From the IMG/VR virus record IMGVR_UViG_3300042511_000879, positions 62,001 through 126,000 of that record: 64,000 nucleotides of DNA. One strand, given 5' to 3'. This document shows positions 4,279 through 53,144 of this stretch, in pieces. This DNA comes from a virus. The first letter of the stretch is position 1; every line of letters starts with the position of its first letter. The notes beneath the pieces were generated by a model. That model saw only the letters and a list, made by a program, of their open reading frames with translations. It was not told the origin of the DNA and did not search any database. The position numbers and the translations under genes are program-made.

Positions 4279-7200
4279 TTATGCTTGTATTTTAACATGT
4301 ATTTTAAAGTTATATGAATATCCATATTTTTTATTATATATTAGTCTAAAACTTAAACCGTCATTTTGATAACTTTGAATATTGAAATTAGTTAACTCTA
4401 CATAATTATCAGCAGTTAATTGTGATGTTTGAGTAACCGACACGAAACTCGTTTCTAATCCCTTACCTTCAATTCCATAAATTTTAATTGAATCAATAAT
4501 AAAACGAGGGGATATATTTGATTTTGAATAGATTTGCAAATCATCTTTTATCGAAGATTTATCTCCATATGAATTTGCAGCTTTAACGTATCTTCCGAAA
4601 TATCTTTCAATTCCATCTTCAGTTAATTCATTTAATATTGCAGTTGATAAATAAAAATCTGCAATTACTTGAGATTCATCTTCAATCCAATGTATGGATG
4701 CTGTATTAGATTGTACAAACCTAATTTTATCTAAAACTTCAATTGAAAGCTCTTGAACATTATCAAATTTAGTTATATCATAAGTATCTCTGACCTTCAT
4801 GATTGTTGATGCCATGAATGTTTTCTTTTCTACAGGACTTAATGTTCCATTTGTTGTTTCAGATTCTCCACCACTAAGGGCTCTTGTGAAATAATCTTTA
4901 GAATACTTAGATTTAAAAACATTAATCTCTTTTTTATCAATTGCAATCTCTCCAATCATCGGATATAATGGTAATTTATCAGTTGTTTGAGAAAGTTTTA
5001 ATATATTTTTCGAGTCTTGCTCATTAACTTTATGATAAAAATAGTTACTAATAAAACCATAGTTGTTTGTATTTTCTTTAAAAGAATCAAAAGAGATTCC
5101 TTTACCATTTAACTTGTTGTACGCAATTAAAACAGATTCTTTTAACGCAGTTGTTGGAACTAATGGATCCTCTTCTATTTTAAGTACTTTTTTATCTGAA
5201 TTAATATCTGAAAAAGTTATAATATCATTAAAAATAGGATTATAATCTCCATTCATTCTTCTCAAAATAGATACATATCCTCCATCTTTTCTATCTTCTA
5301 CGATATTACCAATTTGATTTGAAGATAGTCTAAACGCTTTTGGTCTTTCTGGATCTGAAGTTGGTTGTATAATAGAAGGTTTAACAACATCGACACCTGA
5401 TTCTACCGAAAGAACAAAATCATTTTTTGATAGAGTTCCATCTTCAGCAATTGTAACATAGTTTACTTGTCCAAATGAATTAAATCTTTTAGAATATTTA
5501 TAAGCACTAATTGAATCTAATAAATTTGCAAACTCATTTTTACCTCCTTGTGAATAATCAAAAGGTCCAGTTTCAGCTACCAAAGACATAAATTGTGGAT
5601 CTAATCGACCCTCTAGAGGATATGGAGCAATAGGCGGATCATTAGGATTTATTGGTTGCGTCGGATTCGGTACAAATTTATACGGGTGTCCACTTACTAA
5701 TATTGAAGTGTCATCAATAACATCGATAACTTTTACTGCGTATGTATCTCCTGTCACTGTGAAATATATCCATGAATATTCGCCAATAGAATTTCTCTTA
5801 ACAAACTCAGTAAACTTCGCAGTGCCATTATTTATTGATATAATCGATGCCTTAATAATAAAAGGAGTATCAGGGTCTGAATCTGGCTCTGGAGTTGATC
5901 CAATAAAATCAATACGAAATGGAATTCTAGTATCTATAATATCACCGCCTAATGTTAAATCGTTTATAGTGTATAGCAAGTATCTATTAATATCTTCTTC
6001 TGTTATGTCATTTTCAATAATCTTTAATTCTATGTTAACACAAATAAATTTAAACTTGTCATTTTTAACACAATTAAAAACAATTGAATTTGATGGAATA
6101 GTATCATCGCTACTGTATGACAGATATGCTCCAAACTTATAATCACTTATGTCAATTCCTTTCAAGAACTCAGTTGGAATTTCATTTGTAATTTCTTTTC
6201 TTTTTTGGAAAACATATCTAAGACCTCTAAAAACTGCCGATGAATTTTTTTCAAAATTACCTATATCAAATTTAGACCATAATCTTTTTGATTTATTATC
6301 AAACCACGACTGTGCAGAGTTGCTTGTATCAAAATAACCAGTCCAATTAAAATGTTTATCAAAATAATTAAACGTAGTACTTTTTAATTTATCAATGGTT
6401 AATCCTCCATCACCTGCAAAATCTAAATAATTATTTAAGTCTTTTCTAGAGCCTAAAATGCTAGTTGGAATTCTATTTAAGTGAAAATGTTCCATATTCA
6501 AGGATTCAATATTTCTTTTTGAATCCAATTCTATATTTGGCGATAAATTATCATCTCCAAACGCCTCGTTTACATTTAAAACATAAGGTAAATTTCTACC
6601 ATTTGATGAATTCTTAAGTTCATATTTACAAATAGTCGGAACAACTCTACTTAAAAGAGCAGTTTCCTTAAGACTATTTTCTTTAAGACGGTCATATTCA
6701 TTTAAGAGTTGAGTTTTTGCGACTGTTTCTGAAGTTTCCGCGGATAAAATATCTCTAAGACCTGAATAGAATAATGATGCAGTAGTTGTTGAAGACTCAT
6801 CAAAATCATAAACCAAATCTCCTAGGTCTGAGTTTCTTGTTGAGTAAAAATCAAAATCAAAATCTTTAAAATCATATGCAGCAAATTTACCATGAACCGT
6901 TTTATATTCATCATAAACCTCATATACTCTATCATTTGAAAGTTTTGTAGCTCTATCTAAAATAACTCTATAGTAATTTGTATCAAATGGGTCTTGGTTA
7001 ATCTCTATAATTCTAACAAATTTATCAGAATCTTTTTGTTTTAAGTATTCTCCAACTTGAACATTTCCAATTTCTGAAGATTTAACAAGAACTGATTGTC
7101 CTTCAGATGATCCAGCAATAGTTGTCCATATATTCCAAACATTTGGAATATTAGCGTTTAGTCCAATATCATCAAATTCACCATTATCAACATTAATAAA

Positions 7201-8781
7201 ATCAACTAAATTAGTATTGTATACTCCGAATGCGGTTTGTTTTCTTTTATTTCCAGCAACTATCTCTTCAATAATTATCGAAGTGCCAATAACTTTTGTT
7301 TTATAAGTTATAATTTCTCCATTGTTAATTGCAGAAGCTAAAGCAATTGCTATTTGTTGTAGACTTCCATCGCTTGAGAATCTATTTCCTACAGCTCTAG
7401 CGACTGGTAAGGTTGGATCTGCAATAACAATATAGTCTCCTAAATTGTATTGTGAAATTTGAATTTCAGTTTTATCTCCAATAAAAATTCTATCATTAGC
7501 ACTTGGAATATCTTTTATTGTAATCTTAATAAATCCTTTATAACTTGGCTCTTTAAGATCTGCCGTTATTTTCTTACCATTTTTTGCATATCCAATAAAA
7601 GATTTTTCATTACTATCATTTTGAGATATTAAAAATTTATAAGACCAAACTTCTGGTATAGATAGTCCAGGATTTCCAGCATTTATTAATTTACTTGATG
7701 CATTTTTGATATTATAAAAAGTACCTGATTTATCTTTAACATATTGTAAGGTTGGAATTTGAAATTGGTCACTTCCAGGAAACATATCAATATCAACCAA
7801 AGGAATTGGAGCTTGAGATATATCATAAAAAGTTTTATAACTATTGTATTCGGCATTTAATTGACTATTCGTAAGTCCAATAGAACCAAAACTACCTTCA
7901 TCAATATCATCGGCATAAATACCAAAGTATCTATAGATTTTATAGTTTTCTGCAGTATAATCATCGAACAAAAATTCTAAATTAATTATATTAGCAGAAA
8001 CAATACCATTCCTTTCAAATCCATTAGTTATGGTTTGATTGCTAAAAATCTCAGGATAATCAACTTGAACATAATCTCTGTCTAATTGTTCTGTTTTAAC
8101 TGTAAATCCACCGTTAACGATATCAATACCATTAAATGTTGATTGAGAACCTTCTTTAAAGTTTATAGTAAGCGCTGAGTTTGGAAATCTTTTATCGTTA
8201 ACATGAGTATTTAAGTACTCTCCAATTTTTGAAGATTTACCCAAATCAAACGTTTTAATTATTGTAGCATTTTTAAGAAGTTCTAAAATCCTAGAATTTT
8301 GTCCAGTAGTATTTTCAGTATAATCTGTGTTATAATCAACATCTTCAATTCTATAAATTACAAATTTAGAAGGTACTTGTTTTTCAAGCCAAATTGGAGC
8401 AAATATTTTATATTGCTCATCATATAATTTAGTAATATTTTGGATTGCGCCATATTGATACTGATCTTCATATTGAAATTCATAATCAGAAAATAGAGCA
8501 ATATCAGAAGATGCTCTAAGAGTTTCGTATCTTTGCGTTAGCGGAAGCTGTTTATAAAAATTAGCAATATCGATAGAATATATCCCGGAAGATTTAATCT
8601 CATATTTTTGAAATTCAATTTTAGAAAGTTCTTTGTTTGCTCTAAAAGAACTTAAAAACAAGTCGCCATTTGAGTTAACAAGCAACTTTGAATTACTCGT
8701 TAACTTTGGATTTGTTCTTAATAAAGCAAAAGATTTATTATCTATTGAATTGTTTACAGCATCAGTATTAATTATAGCCAT
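4279..8781 (-). CDS. Very large virion/baseplate-associated protein, unrecognised
   Basis: A 1500-residue acidic, Asn/Ser/Asp-rich protein without a family I can name, one of three consecutive giant proteins between the baseplate wedge genes and the fibres. No signal peptide, membrane segment or enzyme motif is evident. Many short strand-forming blocks (for example F-K-I-H-V-K-I at the C-terminus) suggest a beta-rich structural protein. The leader reads AAAAAGAGGTGTCCTAG before ATG and contains one of the few purine-rich Shine-Dalgarno-like stretches in the window. By position it could connect baseplate and fibres or form a baseplate-rim plate. Function is inferred from neighbourhood only. 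Confidence 0.5.
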   Translation of the reverse strand: MAIINTDAVNNSIDNKSFALLRTNPKLTSNSKLLVNSNGDLFLSSFRANKELSKIEFQKYEIKSSGIYSIDIANFYKQLPLTQRYETLRASSDIALFSDYEFQYEDQYQYGAIQNITKLYDEQYKIFAPIWLEKQVPSKFVIYRIEDVDYNTDYTENTTGQNSRILELLKNATIIKTFDLGKSSKIGEYLNTHVNDKRFPNSALTINFKEGSQSTFNGIDIVNGGFTVKTEQLDRDYVQVDYPEIFSNQTITNGFERNGIVSANIINLEFLFDDYTAENYKIYRYFGIYADDIDEGSFGSIGLTNSQLNAEYNSYKTFYDISQAPIPLVDIDMFPGSDQFQIPTLQYVKDKSGTFYNIKNASSKLINAGNPGLSIPEVWSYKFLISQNDSNEKSFIGYAKNGKKITADLKEPSYKGFIKITIKDIPSANDRIFIGDKTEIQISQYNLGDYIVIADPTLPVARAVGNRFSSDGSLQQIAIALASAINNGEIITYKTKVIGTSIIIEEIVAGNKRKQTAFGVYNTNLVDFINVDNGEFDDIGLNANIPNVWNIWTTIAGSSEGQSVLVKSSEIGNVQVGEYLKQKDSDKFVRIIEINQDPFDTNYYRVILDRATKLSNDRVYEVYDEYKTVHGKFAAYDFKDFDFDFYSTRNSDLGDLVYDFDESSTTTASLFYSGLRDILSAETSETVAKTQLLNEYDRLKENSLKETALLSRVVPTICKYELKNSSNGRNLPYVLNVNEAFGDDNLSPNIELDSKRNIESLNMEHFHLNRIPTSILGSRKDLNNYLDFAGDGGLTIDKLKSTTFNYFDKHFNWTGYFDTSNSAQSWFDNKSKRLWSKFDIGNFEKNSSAVFRGLRYVFQKRKEITNEIPTEFLKGIDISDYKFGAYLSYSSDDTIPSNSIVFNCVKNDKFKFICVNIELKIIENDITEEDINRYLLYTINDLTLGGDIIDTRIPFRIDFIGSTPEPDSDPDTPFIIKASIISINNGTAKFTEFVKRNSIGEYSWIYFTVTGDTYAVKVIDVIDDTSILVSGHPYKFVPNPTQPINPNDPPIAPYPLEGRLDPQFMSLVAETGPFDYSQGGKNEFANLLDSISAYKYSKRFNSFGQVNYVTIAEDGTLSKNDFVLSVESGVDVVKPSIIQPTSDPERPKAFRLSSNQIGNIVEDRKDGGYVSILRRMNGDYNPIFNDIITFSDINSDKKVLKIEEDPLVPTTALKESVLIAYNKLNGKGISFDSFKENTNNYGFISNYFYHKVNEQDSKNILKLSQTTDKLPLYPMIGEIAIDKKEINVFKSKYSKDYFTRALSGGESETTNGTLSPVEKKTFMASTIMKVRDTYDITKFDNVQELSIEVLDKIRFVQSNTASIHWIEDESQVIADFYLSTAILNELTEDGIERYFGRYVKAANSYGDKSSIKDDLQIYSKSNISPRFIIDSIKIYGIEGKGLETSFVSVTQTSQLTADNYVELTNFNIQSYQNDGLSFRLIYNKKYGYSYNFKIHVKIQA

Positions 8782-41649: not shown

Positions 41650-41907
41650 TTAATCACCAGTCATCATGACAAGTTCTTTTAATTTCTTGAGTGATTCACA
41701 TTTTTCATATTCCTCTAACTCAACAAAATATTCTATTAGGACATCTACGAATTTACTTCGCTGTCCAATTCCATGTGGAATATCTATCGTGTGACTTCCG
41801 TCGTTATAAACAATAAATCTATTAATGGTTTTTGTAAAATTTCTAGTAAGTATGTAATAGCTGGACCTCATCAGAGAATCTCTTTCCTCCCCTGTTATAT
41901 CTCCCAT
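41650..41907 (-). CDS. Small protein with C-terminal UVR-like motif (1 of 4)
   Basis: An 85-residue protein ending in V-E-L-E-E-Y-E-K-C-E-S-L-K-K-L-K-E-L. This matches the UVR (UvrB/UvrC) helical hairpin pattern, D/E-x-E-K-A-x-x-L-R-x-x-I. Three other small genes share the ending (41997-42260, 43342-43635, 48790-49092). UVR motifs occur in UvrB/C, in McsA and in the middle domain of ClpC, which also has one here (residues 283-297). It could bind the phage ClpC or host UvrB/C. The N-terminal half is unrecognised. Confidence 0.5.
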   Translation of the reverse strand: MGDITGEERDSLMRSSYYILTRNFTKTINRFIVYNDGSHTIDIPHGIGQRSKFVDVLIEYFVELEEYEKCESLKKLKELVMMTGD

Positions 41908-41996: not shown

Positions 41997-42260
41997 CTAT
42001 ATTATATTGCTTGATAACATTTCAATTATCTTTTTAAGTTCTTTACATTTTTCATAATCTTCATTATCTTTAAAAAACTTAAGAACCGTTTGCACTCCTT
42101 CTATTTTCTCTTCAATAGTTCCATCGTGCTTTAAGGCACCCATTTTACCATTAACAATAGAAGAGTACATTGCCTCCATCATATCTTCTTTAGAGGCTTC
42201 GTGTAGTCTTTTTATAAATTTTCTTGATTCCTCCGGGCTTTCTTCTTCAATACTGCTCAT
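41997..42260 (-). CDS. Small protein with C-terminal UVR-like motif (2 of 4)
   Basis: An 87-residue protein with an acidic helical N-terminus (MSSIEEESPEESRKF) and the C-terminal F-F-K-D-N-E-D-Y-E-K-C-K-E-L-K-K-I-I-E-M-L, the closest of the four to a textbook UVR motif. Its 5' end overlaps the DnaJ-like gene stop by 14 bp, linking it to chaperone expression. Adaptor or partner-binding role is inferred from the motif. Confidence 0.5.
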   Translation of the reverse strand: MSSIEEESPEESRKFIKRLHEASKEDMMEAMYSSIVNGKMGALKHDGTIEEKIEGVQTVLKFFKDNEDYEKCKELKKIIEMLSSNII

Positions 42261-43080
42261 TTGGATTTTTTATCTTTTTAAGTAATTCTATTTCAGTTTC
42301 AGTTAAAGTTATAGGAAGAGTTCTAAGTTTCACCATAAGATTTCCGAATCCTTCTGCGTTATATATTGGCATTCCTTGTCCAACAACTCGTAGAAGTTGT
42401 GAATCATGAGAACCTTGAGGAACTTTGATTTTAATAGAATTTAGTTTGGTGTGGATTTCAAATTCTCCTCCGAGTAGAAGGTCAATCCAGTTTAGGGTTA
42501 ATTCAACATAGATATCACTGCCATTAACAATAAGTTCAGGGTCTGGTAAAACATTGACAGTTAATATGATATCGCCAGGAGGCGCAGATGAATTTACAGG
42601 GTGATTTGCTCCTTTACCTGGGACTTTAAGTTTTGTTCCAGTTTGGATTCCTCGAGGTATATTGATATTAAATCCACCAGTACCGACATCAATATATTTT
42701 CTGACACCTTCATATGATTCCTCAACTGTTATATTTAATGTAACTCTAACATCATATCCTCTTGCTTGACCGCCAAAGGATTGATTAAACATGTCGGTAA
42801 AATCACCTCCAAAACCATGGAAAGCGTGTTGCCATGCAGATGTGGTGTCCTGGTTTCTTTGGAAATTTCCAAATGGATTATGTCCTCTAGATGGATTATC
42901 ATACTGTTCTTTTTTGACAGGGTCAGAAAGAGTTTCGTATGCTTCAGATATTTTTTTGAATTGCGAGTCGTCTCCTCCTGTTTTGTCAGGATGGTGTTCT
43001 TTTACAAGCTTTCTATAAGATTTTTTAATCTCTTCTGGAGTAGCACCCTTTGAAACGTTAAGAGTTTCGTAATAATTCAT
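42247..43080 (-). CDS. dnaJ: DnaJ/CbpA-type co-chaperone
   Basis: A 277-residue J protein. Residues 1-65 are a J domain with the essential H30-P31-D32 and the surrounding Y-R-K-L-V-K-E-H pattern. A Gly/Phe/Gln linker (about 66-105) leads to two C-terminal beta-barrel substrate-binding domains (about 108-265; G-F-N-I-N-I-P-R-G-I-Q-T-G and L-L-L-G-G-E-F-E-I). It lacks the Cys-rich zinc finger, so it is a class B (CbpA-like) J protein. It would stimulate the host DnaK, as no phage DnaK is seen in the window. It sits between two UVR-motif genes and near ClpP/ClpC. Confidence 0.9.
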   Translation of the reverse strand: MNYYETLNVSKGATPEEIKKSYRKLVKEHHPDKTGGDDSQFKKISEAYETLSDPVKKEQYDNPSRGHNPFGNFQRNQDTTSAWQHAFHGFGGDFTDMFNQSFGGQARGYDVRVTLNITVEESYEGVRKYIDVGTGGFNINIPRGIQTGTKLKVPGKGANHPVNSSAPPGDIILTVNVLPDPELIVNGSDIYVELTLNWIDLLLGGEFEIHTKLNSIKIKVPQGSHDSQLLRVVGQGMPIYNAEGFGNLMVKLRTLPITLTETEIELLKKIKNPNEQY

Positions 43081-43354: not shown

Positions 43355-43635
43355 GCTTTCTTAAGTATCTTATTTATTTGGGCGCATTTTTCGTACTCTT
43401 CAAGCTCTTCAAAAAGCTCTAACATATCTCCTAGAATTTTAACAATAGGTTTAATATCAAGTTCTTGTTTTTCCATTAATTTAAAATCAACTCCTTTAGA
43501 AATTATTTCAGCATAATTTTCATTTGCAAGCTTGATTTTTAAATCATACATTACGTTATTCATTTCGGCTTCTTTTTTAATAGTGTCGATTTCGTCTTCT
43601 TGTTCTTCAAATAAATTGTTAAAGTCTTCGTCCAT
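43342..43635 (-). CDS. Small protein with C-terminal UVR-like motif (3 of 4)
   Basis: A 97-residue acidic protein (MDEDFNNLFEEQEDEIDTIK at the start) ending F-E-E-L-E-E-Y-E-K-C-A-Q-I-N-K-I-L-K-K. It has its own promoter at 43659-43690 and terminator at 43335, so it is a single-gene unit. The tail has the same E-E-Y-E-K-C signature as its three relatives. A partner-binding helical hairpin is the likely role, the target unknown. Confidence 0.55.
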   Translation of the reverse strand: MDEDFNNLFEEQEDEIDTIKKEAEMNNVMYDLKIKLANENYAEIISKGVDFKLMEKQELDIKPIVKILGDMLELFEELEEYEKCAQINKILKKAKVL

Positions 43636-48103: not shown

Positions 48104-48790
48104 TTATTTTCTAGATTTTGATTTAACTGGATTAATAATCTCGTCGATTATACCGTACTTAAGTGCCTCTTCTGCGCTTAACCATAAATCTCGGGTAGCA
48201 TCAGACATAACCTGCTCTGGTTTCTTGTCACAATATGAACCTAACAAATTAAATAGTTCTTTGTTGACTTTTTGCCATTCTGCCCAGTCTATTTCGGCAT
48301 CTTGGATATTCCCACTGAATCCTCCTGAGGATTGGTGTAACATAGTAGTCGAGTGTCTTAGTGAACTTCTCTTGCCTTTAGTTCCAGCTCCTAATAGTAC
48401 TGAACCCATCGAAGCTGCCATTCCTGTATTTACTGTTTTGATATCAGATTTAATCCATTCCATAACGTCAATCATAGAAAGCCCTGATTTTACAGAACCT
48501 CCTGGACTATCAATATGCATTGTTATATCTCGGTCATCTGTGCTATCTAAAAACATTAATTGAGCTTGTACAATAGTTGACATATTGTCATTAACAGGCC
48601 CTGCAACCCACAATAATCGATCGATCATCAACCTTGAAAATATATCCATTTGAGTAGCTCTTAATTGTCTCTCTTCTAGAATATAAGGTGTCATTGATGA
48701 TTCAATTTGATTTTTATAGTAGTGCATGTTCATTGAACTTATGCCCTTGTCTAGCATTGCGTATCTTTCGAATTCTTTTCCGTGATTCAT
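48104..48790 (-). CDS. clpP: ATP-dependent Clp protease proteolytic subunit ClpP
   Basis: A 228-residue serine peptidase. The catalytic triad is visible: Ser127 in G-M-A-A-S-M-G-S, His152 in T-M-L-H-Q-S-S-G-G, and Asp201 in A-T-R-D-L-W-L-S-A. The conserved H-I-D-S-P-G-G-S-V segment is present at 92-100. Length and order fit full ClpP, and the N-terminal about 50 residues are somewhat longer than in host ClpP, with no obvious propeptide site. Its start codon overlaps the stop of the UVR-motif gene upstream. It could assemble with the phage ClpC-like ATPase (50907-52880) or host partners. Confidence 0.92.
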   Translation of the reverse strand: MNHGKEFERYAMLDKGISSMNMHYYKNQIESSMTPYILEERQLRATQMDIFSRLMIDRLLWVAGPVNDNMSTIVQAQLMFLDSTDDRDITMHIDSPGGSVKSGLSMIDVMEWIKSDIKTVNTGMAASMGSVLLGAGTKGKRSSLRHSTTMLHQSSGGFSGNIQDAEIDWAEWQKVNKELFNLLGSYCDKKPEQVMSDATRDLWLSAEEALKYGIIDEIINPVKSKSRK

Positions 48791-49092
48791 TATAGTTTCT
48801 TTAATAGTTTTTTAATTTGAGTACATCTTTCGTATTTTTCATGGAATGTATAGAAGTCCAGGCTTTTTAATATTGATTGCTTATAAGAACTTTTAGGAAG
48901 ATCTGCATACTGTATATCTCCATTTTCATGGACAAAATAACATAATAATGTTTCTCTATCTTCTTTGTTAATATTTGCTTCGATAAAATCTACAATTCTG
49001 TCGTGAAATTCGCAATCGTTTGTAATTGAATTAAACCCATCTCCATCTATGTAGAATTCAGGGATATCTGTTCCTTTCATGCACTCAATCAT
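48790..49092 (-). CDS. Small protein with C-terminal UVR-like motif (4 of 4)
   Basis: A 100-residue acidic protein whose end reads F-H-E-K-Y-E-R-C-T-Q-I-K-K-L-L-K-K-L. The gene sits between the dCMP-hydroxymethylase-like gene (4 bp overlap) and ClpP (1 bp overlap), so its translation is tied to ClpP. An N-terminal C-M-K-G-T-D and E-F-Y-I-D-G-D-G-F-N segment is unrecognised. The location makes it the best candidate for a ClpC/ClpP adaptor among the four. Confidence 0.55.
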   Translation of the reverse strand: MIECMKGTDIPEFYIDGDGFNSITNDCEFHDRIVDFIEANINKEDRETLLCYFVHENGDIQYADLPKSSYKQSILKSLDFYTFHEKYERCTQIKKLLKKL

Positions 49093-49943
49093 ATCTCTTT
49101 TATATTAAGATACCCTGATAATAAATTATAATATGTTTCTTTGGTCAACACATTATCTATCGTGGTATTTATATTATTTATCATCGAAATTCCTGAAGGG
49201 GTTAAACTCATAACTCCATTTTCAATATTAAAAATAGGTTCTAATAATTCCATTAAGTATTGTTTCTCGTGAAGAGGCTCGTGAACGATCCTTTCGGCTA
49301 ATTCAAAATGTCTTTCGTAAAAGTGGATGTTATCAGCGTAATGATGGTATACTCCAAGTTCTAATTCTGGGTAAGTTGACTTTAACCAAAGGTAAACATG
49401 TTGTTGGACGAATGCAAAGAATGGAGCATCAAATGTAAGTCCATAAAAAATATCATTAGATCGCATTTGAACTTTCATATCTAGCTTATTGTGTCTGATT
49501 GAAAAGTTTAGGTACATAGTACATACAAAATCTTTATTACCTTCAAACTGGTATTTTGGCTGATTTAAGAAAGCAATTGCTTGTCTAGTGTTCTTGTCTG
49601 CTTTAAGAGAATCGACTACCCATTGTAATTGTTCTCCGAAAAGAAGAGAACCGTAATTTGAATTAATTTCGTTTGTTCCAGGATTTGTTATGTTTTTCCA
49701 GAATCCAGAAAATTTATTAATGTAGTCAATATTGGTATCTTTATTAAGGTACCATGCTAATTCGCCGGCAAAATACTTCCAATTAAACTCTCTACTATTA
49801 AAATTAGCAAATGGTTCTTTTGGATTAATTGGATATCCGGCATAAAGTAATTCGGTAACTTCAAGGTCTCTTGGTTTAGAGACCTCTCCGTGTATTTTTA
49901 TATCTGAAATTATGTGTTTAAATTGGTGTGAGAATGTTTTCAT
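49089..49943 (-). CDS. dCMP hydroxymethylase-like (thymidylate synthase fold, T4 gp42 type)
   Basis: A 284-residue protein of the thymidylate synthase superfamily. The catalytic Cys141 is followed by an R-S-N-D (161-164) that matches the R-S-x-D phosphate site. The position equivalent to Asn177 of E. coli ThyA (Cys+31), which selects dUMP, is Asp172 here. Asp at this site marks dCMP-specific enzymes such as T4 gp42. E-I-N-S-N-Y-G and D-F-V-C-T also agree with gp42 better than with ThyA (P-C-H). It likely converts dCMP to 5-hydroxymethyl-dCMP using methylene-THF. A dUMP or plain methylase activity cannot be fully excluded. Confidence 0.75.
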   Translation of the reverse strand: MKTFSHQFKHIISDIKIHGEVSKPRDLEVTELLYAGYPINPKEPFANFNSREFNWKYFAGELAWYLNKDTNIDYINKFSGFWKNITNPGTNEINSNYGSLLFGEQLQWVVDSLKADKNTRQAIAFLNQPKYQFEGNKDFVCTMYLNFSIRHNKLDMKVQMRSNDIFYGLTFDAPFFAFVQQHVYLWLKSTYPELELGVYHHYADNIHFYERHFELAERIVHEPLHEKQYLMELLEPIFNIENGVMSLTPSGISMINNINTTIDNVLTKETYYNLLSGYLNIKEI

Positions 49944-49956
49944 GTTTATAATTTTA

Positions 49957-50880
49957 TTATATTACGTCAAAAAAGAACATGTGAAAGAATCTTGCGTTCT
50001 CAATAGCATCGCCAAAATATTTACTTGGCGCATGAATTTGTTTAGAATCGAATAGAACTAAACGGTTGTATACATTACCAACCTCATCGATTTTATCAAA
50101 ATTAGTTGAATCATAAAAATTTGCTTGAGCATTCTTGCCTTTAAATGTATCTTCAAACACAGAATAGTCTTCAAAATTATCAAATCTTTTTTTACCAGTA
50201 TTTTTACCAGAATAGAAAGATGTACCTGTTTCGAATGGAGCATCTTTAGTTAAGAATACCATTCCTGCATACATCTGACTGTCAACATGAAATACGGGTA
50301 GATCGCTTGCTACACAATATTGGAATACTCCATTTGCATAACTTTCATAATTCCAGTTTATAATTTCGCGGCCAATTATCTTTTCTAATTTCTCTTTAGT
50401 GCCATCTAGAATAAACCTAGTTTGACTTCTTTTACCTTTGTGATAATCAGAGGGGTTGTATTCTAGATTATTCATTGCAAAATCTCTAATAAAGTCAGGA
50501 TCTGCATAAAAATTATCAACTACAATTAGACTTTTATTTTCATTATAGAATCCAGAATAATAAGCAATAAAATTATCAATGCTTCCTGGATTATAAATAA
50601 GTTCTCCAAATTTAACTTGAATCTTTGCGCCTTTAGAGATATTAAAAACTAATCCAACACTATCATCTTCTAAAGGATAATATTTAGAAACATCTGGACG
50701 ACTAATAACTGTTAATGGTATTTCAATATCATCGACTATCAATGAACTAACTGGTTTAAAGGAATCACCGTCTTTTACTAGAATCCAACCAGTTGCATTA
50801 TAGTTATTATCGGATACTTTGGTAATTGAATCAAAAAACCAAAAAACGTTTGGATCTTTTGTAAAAGTGTTATAAATCAT
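49957..50880 (-). CDS. 2-oxoglutarate/Fe(II) oxygenase-like protein
   Basis: A 307-residue protein. The N-terminal half is beta-rich. V-V-D-N-F-Y-A-D-P-D-F-I-R-D-F (about 120-134) is a common lead-in of this fold. The iron triad is plausible: H198-x-D200, and H283 within Q-I-H-A-P-S. Arg297 may bind the 2OG carboxylate. It lies 13 bp upstream of the dCMP-hydroxymethylase-like gene and could act on nucleotides or proteins. Substrate is inferred only. Confidence 0.6.
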   Translation of the reverse strand: MIYNTFTKDPNVFWFFDSITKVSDNNYNATGWILVKDGDSFKPVSSLIVDDIEIPLTVISRPDVSKYYPLEDDSVGLVFNISKGAKIQVKFGELIYNPGSIDNFIAYYSGFYNENKSLIVVDNFYADPDFIRDFAMNNLEYNPSDYHKGKRSQTRFILDGTKEKLEKIIGREIINWNYESYANGVFQYCVASDLPVFHVDSQMYAGMVFLTKDAPFETGTSFYSGKNTGKKRFDNFEDYSVFEDTFKGKNAQANFYDSTNFDKIDEVGNVYNRLVLFDSKQIHAPSKYFGDAIENARFFHMFFFDVI

Positions 50881-50906
50881 ATGTTTGTTTTTTGTTTATT
50901 ATACAA

Positions 50907-52880
50907 TTATTTAAAAGAAAGTTTCTCATCTCCTTTTTTATATGAAATCGTGTACGTTTTATTTCCTTTAACAATTTCTTTAGCTAAAATACCATCTGCT
51001 AATAAGTCTTCAACATACGTTTGAATTGCTCTTTTAAGAGGTCTAGCTCCATATTGAGCATCATACCCACGTTCTGCTAAAAATACTATCGCCGTTTTTG
51101 CAACTTTAATAATATATTCTTGTTCAACCATTCTTTCAATTACTTTTTGAATTTCGATTTCTGCAATTTTAGCAACATCTTCTTGTTTTAATCCATCAAA
51201 CAATACTATTTCATCCAATCTATTTAAGAATTCCGGAGCAAATTTGTTTTTAAGCTCTTTTCTGATAACAGTTTCCATTTCCATTTTGTGGGTGGCCGTA
51301 GAACTTGAACTTGAGAATCCGATTCCAGCCCCAAATTCTGCAACTCTTTTTGCTCCAACATTACTTGTCATAATAATGATAGTATTCGTAAAGTCAATAG
51401 TTCTACCAAGAGTATCTGTTAAACGACCCTCATCTAAAACCTGTAACAAGATATTGAAAATATCTGGGTGGGCCTTTTCAACTTCATCAAATAATACTAC
51501 TGAATATGGTTTACGTCGGACTTGTTCTGTTAACTGTCCACCATCCTCATGTCCTTCATATCCCGGAGGAGAACCAATAAGTCTACTTACGTTAAACTTT
51601 TCTTGGTATTCTGACATGTCGATTCTGATTAAAGAATCCTCGCTTCCGAAATAATATTCAGAAAGGGCTTTAACAGTTTCAGTTTTACCAACTCCAGTAG
51701 GTCCAATAAACATAAATGAACCGATAGGTTTTTTAGATGAACTTACTCCAGTTCGGCTTCTTTTAATAACTCTACATAGACCTTCAACCGCAGTATCTTG
51801 CCCGATAATCATCGCTTTTAATTCATTTTCCATATCAATAACAATTCTGCTCTCGTCATCGGTCATTCTTGTTACCGGAATTCCAGTAGATTCAGAAATT
51901 ACTTCAGCAATATCTTCATAAGTTACTGCCTTCTTATTTAGTCTAAGCGTCTCCTCCCATTCTTTGGTTCTTTTTGTTATCTCTTCTCGCTTACTAATTT
52001 CAAGGTCTCTTAAATTTCCGGCTTTTTCATAATTAGTAGCATCTGCTGCTTTTAACTTTGCGGCTTTTAATTTATCAGCTTCAATTTCAAGTTCTTTAAT
52101 AATTTCTGGAATTTTTACCTCTTTTAAATGTACTTTTGCTCCAGCCTCGTCCATAACATCAATTGCTTTGTCCGGTAATTCTCTTTGAGTAATATATCGG
52201 TCAGATAATACTACACAGGCTTTAATAGCGTCAGGAGTATATGATACTGAATGGAAGTCTTCGTAATTTGGTTTAATTCTGTCTAGAATTTCGATTGCAT
52301 CTTCAAGGGATGGTGGGTCTATAAAGATTTCTTGGAATCTTCTGGTAAGAGCTCCATCGGTTTCAATATTTTCACGATACTCATCGATTGTCGTAGCACC
52401 AATACATTGTACTTGTCCTCTTGCCAATGCCGGTTTTAAGATATTACTAGCATCTAATGAACCACTTACACCACCAGCGCCTACAATTGTGTGAATCTCA
52501 TCAATAAAGACAATAACATCTGGGTTCTCTTTAAGTTCATCAACAATGTTTTTCATTCGTTCCTCAAATTCTCCACGGTATTTTGTACCTGCAACTACGT
52601 TTGCAATATTAAGAGCAATTATACGTTTATTAAGAAGAGTCATTGCAACTTTCTTTTCAACAATACGTTGCGCAATTGCTTCAACTAGTGCAGTTTTACC
52701 AACCCCAGGATCCCCTAAAATAATTGGATTGTTTTTCTTTCTACGAGAAAGGATTTGACATATTCTATGGACCTCTTTTTCTCTTCCGATGATAGGGTCA
52801 AGTTTCCCATCTGCCGCTAGTTTAGTTAAGTCCTCTCCGAATTGGTCAATGAATGGAGTATTTGTTTTCTTACTGGTCAT
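50907..52880 (-). CDS. clpC: ClpC-like AAA+ unfoldase without N-domain
   Basis: A 657-residue double AAA+ ATPase. D1 Walker A is G-D-P-G-V-G-K-T (56-63) with V-F-I-D-E-I-H (124-130). D2 Walker A is G-P-T-G-V-G-K-T (393-400) with V-V-L-F-D-E-V-E (461-468). A short middle domain carries N-Y-E-K-A-G-N-L-R-D-L-E (283-294), the UVR motif typical of ClpC. A ClpP-docking I-G-F loop is at 520-522, so it should work with a ClpP rather than act as a ClpB disaggregase. The usual adaptor-binding N-domain (about 150 residues) is missing, so substrate selection must differ. Confidence 0.88.
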   Translation of the reverse strand: MTSKKTNTPFIDQFGEDLTKLAADGKLDPIIGREKEVHRICQILSRRKKNNPIILGDPGVGKTALVEAIAQRIVEKKVAMTLLNKRIIALNIANVVAGTKYRGEFEERMKNIVDELKENPDVIVFIDEIHTIVGAGGVSGSLDASNILKPALARGQVQCIGATTIDEYRENIETDGALTRRFQEIFIDPPSLEDAIEILDRIKPNYEDFHSVSYTPDAIKACVVLSDRYITQRELPDKAIDVMDEAGAKVHLKEVKIPEIIKELEIEADKLKAAKLKAADATNYEKAGNLRDLEISKREEITKRTKEWEETLRLNKKAVTYEDIAEVISESTGIPVTRMTDDESRIVIDMENELKAMIIGQDTAVEGLCRVIKRSRTGVSSSKKPIGSFMFIGPTGVGKTETVKALSEYYFGSEDSLIRIDMSEYQEKFNVSRLIGSPPGYEGHEDGGQLTEQVRRKPYSVVLFDEVEKAHPDIFNILLQVLDEGRLTDTLGRTIDFTNTIIIMTSNVGAKRVAEFGAGIGFSSSSSTATHKMEMETVIRKELKNKFAPEFLNRLDEIVLFDGLKQEDVAKIAEIEIQKVIERMVEQEYIIKVAKTAIVFLAERGYDAQYGARPLKRAIQTYVEDLLADGILAKEIVKGNKTYTISYKKGDEKLSFK

Positions 52881-52931: not shown

Positions 52932-53144
52932 TTATGAATGGGTACCTTTTAAATTGTTAACCGAACGTTGAACACATTCAGGACATAGAGATGCAGTGGC
53001 TTCGGCTCCTACAACAGTCCAGTTCTCGCATGGTCCATCTTCAGGCCCATATTCTGCCCATTTACTCTTTTCCGGTTCTGAATTCTGACAAATCATCGAT
53101 ACGACCTTACGGCCTTTAACTTCAGTTTCTTTAGTTTTCCACAT
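52932..53144 (-). CDS. Small Cys-rich, probable zinc-binding protein
   Basis: A 70-residue protein with Cys19, Cys39 and the C-terminal pair Cys54-P-E-Cys57, a spacing that fits one structural zinc ion. The N-terminus is Lys-rich. It is the last minus-strand gene before the non-coding 53.1-54.6 kb tract. It may be a small nucleic-acid-binding or regulatory protein. No family is recognised. Confidence 0.45.
   Translation of the reverse strand: MWKTKETEVKGRKVVSMICQNSEPEKSKWAEYGPEDGPCENWTVVGAEATASLCPECVQRSVNNLKGTHS

Follow-up and report, generated by a model that had tools for sequence, protein, structure and literature searches.

Why giant phages carry Clp proteases is a standing question, and a locus encoding both a ClpC-type ATPase and a ClpP peptidase raises it in compact form: do the two proteins make a proteolytic machine that belongs to the phage, or does each serve some other end? 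The locus lies in a window of 64,000 nucleotides (the whole stretch of DNA analysed), which covers bases 62001-126000 of the 236,071-base virus record IMGVR_UViG_3300042511_000879. The record may be incomplete, and every absence reported below is an absence from this record. Judging from the baseplate wedge, tail and PhoH genes that it holds, the source is a tailed phage of jumbo size whose tail is probably contractile. Its host is likely to be a Bacteroidota bacterium, since the nearest bacterial relatives of both proteins come from that group: nearly all of the best 80 bacterial ClpC relatives are from Bacteroidota, and among the genomes searched the phage ClpP is nearest to Bacteroidota ClpP, with identity of up to 53%. 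The two genes are as follows.

50907..52880, minus strand: N-domain-less ClpC-type AAA+ unfoldase of 657 amino acids, with D1, a UVR-type M-domain, D2 and an IGF docking loop at residues 520-522 (profiles, alignment with Staphylococcus aureus ClpC, motifs, homologues).
48104..48790, minus strand: ClpP peptidase of 228 amino acids, with Ser127/His152/Asp201, an N-terminal extension of the Bacteroidota type, His92 in place of the pocket residue Tyr62 and Thr199 at Escherichia coli position 169 (Pfam, NCBIfam, alignment, tree).

A first-pass annotation, made from the letters alone, had placed both open reading frames (ORFs) at these positions and described the ATPase as a protein with two AAA+ modules, a UVR-type motif and an I-G-F loop that lacks the N-domain; all of this held up. 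Both AAA+ modules are intact, with Walker A motifs at residues 56 and 393 and Walker B motifs at 123 and 461, and residues 154-794 of S. aureus ClpC align to the phage protein without large gaps (730 bits). As this alignment starts only at residue 154, the N-domain, which comprises everything before that residue in the S. aureus protein, is missing. The docking loop I520-G521-F522 maps exactly onto the S. aureus AGF at 671-673; within the clade all full-length homologues keep it as [IV]GF, and more distant ones have a hydrophobic-GF loop. Between D1 and D2 lies a short M-domain with a UVR motif (YEKAGNLRD opposite the S. aureus FENAANLRD), whose residues Y284, R291 and D292 correspond to S. 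aureus F436, R443 and D444; R291 and an aromatic residue at 284 are both invariant in the ClpC alignment. Likewise invariant is N507, the equivalent of S. aureus N659. In S. aureus ClpC, mutation of AGF abolishes ClpP binding, activation by ClpP requires N659, and the repressed resting state is held by R443 (PMC12521514). The NCBIfam matches of the phage ATPase included ClpA and ClpB models and no ClpC model, and its scores stay below the equivalog cut-offs (721 of 993 bits for ClpA and 815 of 1232 bits for ClpB). By its domain content the protein is an N-less ClpC-type ATPase rather than a full ClpC, because the Clp_N double domain is absent.

This absence is not peculiar to one sequence. Clade ClpCs lack the N-domain throughout, with at most 46 amino acids ahead of the aligned core, whereas at least 130 precede the core in 78 of the 80 nearest bacterial ClpCs; given this distribution, loss of the N-domain is an old and stable trait of the phage lineage and not damage. 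Its disappearance through a frameshift or a mis-called start was considered and rejected, as about 45 distinct clade sequences share the N-less form and a Clp_N domain (PF02861) is absent from the whole 236-kb record. In other phage lineages both states occur, some ClpCs being N-less and others having 154-218 amino acids upstream. The record has no second AAA_2 Clp ATPase and no ClpS, the latter being absent also from nine sibling records; MecA and McsB were not searched as families.

A few ClpC homologues show interruptions. In L069 (10001-13613, from the same contig as L097) a 1.6-kb insert breaks the gene inside the D2 Walker A (GVGK|CFTGETLITI... stop ... FTNGILSHN|TETV); it resembles a split intein whose halves are separated by other ORFs. 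L080 (10001-12429) has an intein-like interruption of this kind in the D1 Walker A (GVGK|CVTSDTEVV ... YYTNGILSHN|TSII), the corresponding point of the other AAA+ module. A single frameshift near residue 492 in L101 (8190-8260) may be a sequencing error or an inactivation.

The peptidase proved to be the complete ClpP that the first-pass annotation had called. Its match to Pfam CLP_protease has an E-value of 7e-56 (189 bits against a cut-off of 20), and the Ser127/His152/Asp201 triad is in place and invariant across all related phage ClpPs. The best NCBIfam model is PRK14514 at 240.5 bits, below its cut-off of 361 bits, and PRK00277 scores 212 bits, likewise below its cut-off of 249. No second ClpP was found in the record. 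In the tree the phage ClpPs group together on a long stem as a single clade supported at 100/100 (row L159 is the E. coli reference and not a phage sequence), and L276, the ClpP from the L074 record, groups with bacteria.

We compared 63 ClpPs of the phage clade with 21 bacterial sequences, using E. coli numbering. Position 62, which is Tyr or Phe in the bacterial set, is His in all 63 phage proteins; L48M (62 of 63), L189I/V and a change of D/E169 to Thr or Ser accompany it, while Arg170 is kept. Position 169 is the equivalent of the oligomerisation sensor Asp170 of S. aureus. The docking pocket is otherwise mostly preserved (F20, F49, L114, V90), and 15 of the 41 clade-fixed columns fall within the handle and ring-interface stretch 121-161. 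His62 is also found in the far phages L271-L275 and L277 and in the 634-kb phage LR745206, and is not found in the ClpPs of LR756502, Lak-B5, LR756504 and 121Q. Thus, loss of the docking-pocket residues, which the first-pass annotation had named as grounds for abandoning a phage Clp protease, is seen only in part: most of the pocket is present, and one central residue, at position 62, is consistently changed. These clade-fixed changes in pocket and ring interface suggest that docking or gating has been adjusted to the phage ATPase. Tyr62 corresponds to Y63 of S. aureus ClpP, where Y63A opens the gate and renders the enzyme constitutively active (PMC9035409), and the equivalent E. coli mutation is likewise activating (PMC6853987). 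By analogy a pre-opened gate in the phage enzyme is only a hypothesis, because His is not Ala.

Two scans of IMG/VR recovered 79 ClpC loci and 80 ClpP loci, which collapsed to 46 distinct arrangements. In every one of the 46 the two genes are on one strand, and for ClpC relatives down to 66% identity ClpP lies downstream. The order ClpC–ThyA–ClpP, with a thymidylate-synthase-family gene in the middle, is seen in 43 of them, usually with a gene for a small protein (o48790) ahead of ClpP. ClpC and ClpP are under strong purifying selection, the ratio of nonsynonymous to synonymous substitution rates (dN/dS) to near relatives being 0.006-0.05 for ClpC and 0.01-0.03 for ClpP (0.07-0.13 for ThyA); these low ratios, together with conservation in dozens of related contigs, establish both genes as real, far beyond chance. 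All searched ClpC-bearing records above 150 kb also hold ClpP, in some cases more than 100 kb away, and the seven ClpC-bearing records without ClpP are all below 150 kb. Where a ClpP record had no ClpC nearby, one was found elsewhere in 4 of 9.

Three loci (L099, L102 and L119) depart from the common arrangement. Their ClpPs are 81-84% identical to that of the window and are placed among the window-type ClpPs in the tree, but the adjacent ClpCs, which are also N-less, are only about 50% identical, and those of L099 and L119 sit on a long branch elsewhere in the ClpC tree. The ThyA spacer is missing in all three, leaving a ClpC–ClpP gap of 33-392 bases. As read from these comparisons, the ATPase has been exchanged and the pairing kept or rebuilt, and such an exchange beside the same ClpP clade is the strongest indication that the two genes function together.

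Based on these observations we propose, with good though not full confidence, that the phage encodes its own two-component ATP-dependent ClpCP protease. This is the most likely reading because the pair is conserved, syntenic and under purifying selection, has kept its motifs, and is the sole ClpC/ClpP set in the record. The full phage Clp protease of the first-pass annotation is in this respect supported by docking loop, triad and N507 alike, with the qualification that the pocket is an altered one. Several points weigh against the proposal. The main exception to the pairing is a set of two records, 343 and 218 kb long, in which a ClpP but no ClpC was found, although these may be fragments. 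The linkage could partly stem from common descent of one operon and not from function, and ThyA, for which no part in proteolysis is known, is nearly as syntenic as the pair itself. Finally, the phage ClpPs depart from the canonical ClpP in the pocket (His for Tyr62) and at position 169 (Thr or Ser for Asp or Glu).

Under the proposal of a phage ClpCP, the N-less ClpC hexamer would use its IGF loops to dock on a tetradecamer of the phage ClpP, whose pocket and ring-interface changes would tune docking or gating to this ATPase. Substrates would be unfolded through the pore loops (KYRG in D1 and GYEG in D2) and fed into the Ser-His-Asp chamber. Such a ClpC would be unable to use host adaptors of the MecA/McsB/ClpS type that bind the N-domain, and should instead take hold of exposed peptide ends by itself or depend on factors that are phage-made or bind the M-domain. 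Retention of the M-domain repression contacts Y284, R291 and D292 suggests that it would be held in a resting state until activated. The first-pass annotation had argued that the missing N-domain calls for other recruitment factors. However, the engineered S. aureus deltaN-ClpC-R443A works without an adaptor and breaks down even the stable GFP-ssrA (PMC12521514), so that losing the N-domain can lower the need for adaptors. The phage protein is a natural counterpart of this N-domain deletion, but it retains R291, the repressing Arg, and its independence from adaptors is therefore not a given; with that Arg and the aromatic residue at 284 in place, an M-domain-directed activator is plausible. 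The substrates would most likely be selected host or phage proteins, removed or remodelled during infection; an effect on host proteolysis at large, as the first-pass annotation had suggested, is a speculative extension of this.

A bolder form of the proposal, which we hold as doubtful, is that pocket and gate (Tyr62 to His) and ring interface (Thr at 169 and the handle changes) have been re-tuned to yield an orthogonal protease, which would assemble and open only with the phage ATPase, might be pre-activated and steered by small operon factors, and would serve Bacteroidota jumbo phages for degradation in host takeover. Unlikely, in our judgement, is a mixed partnership in which the phage ClpC acts on host ClpP, or the phage ClpP is driven by host ClpX or ClpC, or both, so that the host Clp system is rewired. 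The docking loop is indeed still a generic hydrophobic-GF motif, the nearest bacterial relatives of both proteins are Bacteroidota ClpC and ClpP, probably the host's own, and the changed columns in 121-161 could equally prevent or permit mixed rings; yet the genes travel together even after ClpC exchange, and the pocket changes fixed in the phage ClpPs are absent from Bacteroidota ClpPs.

We consider it improbable that ClpC is a ClpP-independent unfoldase or disaggregase working with a phage DnaJ, whose gene (42247-43080) lies a few kb away, and that ClpP is a separate peptidase, possibly self-gated through the Tyr62 change. ClpB-type disaggregases have no ClpP-docking loop, whereas here that loop is kept under purifying selection and the M-domain is of the short ClpC type. 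Self-gating finds a precedent in the S. aureus and E. coli gate mutants, but the gain of function is argued by analogy from Ala to His. The least credible reading, that ClpP matures phage heads within the capsid pathway and has ClpC as an incidental neighbour, draws on the best PHROG match (phrog_94, 'head maturation protease', 117 bits) and on such an annotation for the ClpP of Escherichia phage 121Q, and is disfavoured by model scores (240 bits for the ClpP model against 68-76 for head-maturation models), by neighbours that are ThyA and small genes and not capsid genes, and by two separate S77 prohead protease matches in the record (7028-7372 and 156418-156672).

The genes around and between the pair are the following.

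48790..49092, minus strand: small protein of 100 amino acids (o48790), between ThyA and ClpP (conserved position, predicted structure).
49089..49943, minus strand: thymidylate-synthase-family protein (ThyA), between ClpC and ClpP, a passenger or an operon member (kept in the 43 arrangements given above).
49957..50880, minus strand: DUF6445 protein between ClpC and ThyA, shared with the closest relatives only and so a variable insertion (profile, synteny).
52932..53144, minus strand: putative zinc-binding protein of 70 amino acids (o52932), just upstream of ClpC and kept in many relatives (four invariant Cys).

The start of o48790 overlaps the ThyA stop (ATGA) and its stop overlaps the ClpP start (TAATG), and these overlapping frames suggest that the three genes are co-transcribed; scans for promoters and terminators stayed at chance level and an Rfam search gave no matches. 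The predicted structure of o48790 (predicted local distance difference test, pLDDT, 81) has an alpha/beta domain followed by a C-terminal helical hairpin of UVR-like sequence (YERCTQIKKLL). The idea that it is a UVR adaptor sharing homology with the ClpC M-domain was rejected, with no Pfam UVR match, an hhalign probability of 0.6% and no fold match in the PDB. It belongs to a family of about four in the record (about three paralogues), and given a likeness confined to the motif and this family size it is not, on present evidence, a dedicated ClpC partner. In o52932 the invariant cysteines are C19, C39, C54 and C57; as a detached ClpX/ClpE-type zinc domain this Cys4 protein found neither a Pfam nor a fold match. 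Neither of the two can be called an adaptor.

The UVR-like C-terminal tail of o48790 is common to small minus-strand ORFs at 41997-42260, 41650-41907 and about 43357-43527, which the DnaJ gene, also on the minus strand and encoding a J-domain plus DnaJ_C, adjoins. One of the S77 matches sits inside a 647-residue frame, possibly a fused scaffold-protease, with the other as a second copy.

With the bacterial ClpCP of S. aureus, Bacillus subtilis and Bacteroidota the phage pair shares the two AAA+ modules, UVR M-domain, hydrophobic-GF loop, N659 and R443 equivalents, and the ClpP triad and fold; it differs in being phage-borne, in lacking the N-domain and in the substitutions at ClpP positions 62, 48, 189 and 169. 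Phage genomes with a Clp ATPase and ClpP have been seen before. The Rak2-like Atu_ph07 has seven Clp proteins, including ClpX, ClpA, ClpB, ClpP and ClpS (PMC6102473). In E. coli phage 121Q ClpA is a 771-residue frame with about 200 residues ahead of the AAA+ region, and its gene lies about 84 kb from that of a ClpP 40% identical to the window's. Jumbo phages are recorded as having ClpP and ClpA (PMC7824862), a ClpA VOG has an occurrence of 24 in moraphages, whose predicted hosts are mostly Bacteroidota (PMC12619734), and Clp proteases are reported for bS21 phages, with predicted Bacteroidota hosts (PMC9723584). The likeness of the window phage to moraphages is one of literature resemblance only, and a bS21 identity was rejected as the record has no S21 gene. 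Large phages such as these and LR745206/LR756502 carry ClpA- or Clp-annotated genes, but N-domain loss, pocket changes and pairing are not described in the texts found. The huge phage LR745206 has an N-less ClpC and a ClpP with the His62 signature, but the two genes are far apart. In the same phage (L295, record positions 296088-296222) a 100-residue ORF matches the M-domain/UVR columns of ClpC alone (E-value 3e-5) and is possibly a free-standing M-domain-like protein. SPO1 Gp53 also represents phage manipulation of ClpCP proteolysis, but as an adaptor-like protein acting on host ClpCP and not as a phage-encoded protease (PMC6873191).

In light of these earlier reports phage-encoded Clp ATPases and ClpP are already established, and what is new here is the N-less pair with a fixed pocket signature. 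No description of an N-less ClpC, a ClpC–ThyA–ClpP operon, partner exchange or the His62 ClpP clade was found in the openly searchable literature, and the text of Al-Shayeb 2020 makes no mention of Clp. The compact recurrent pair, its conserved N-domain loss and a phage-only pocket signature mean that the question of why giant phages carry such proteases can be addressed directly with just two proteins and a small set of point mutants. Should the ClpP prove orthogonal or pre-opened, it would be a natural counterpart of the laboratory-made Y63A gate mutant, as its partner would be of ΔN-ClpC, and the pair would be useful for the biology of ClpP gating.

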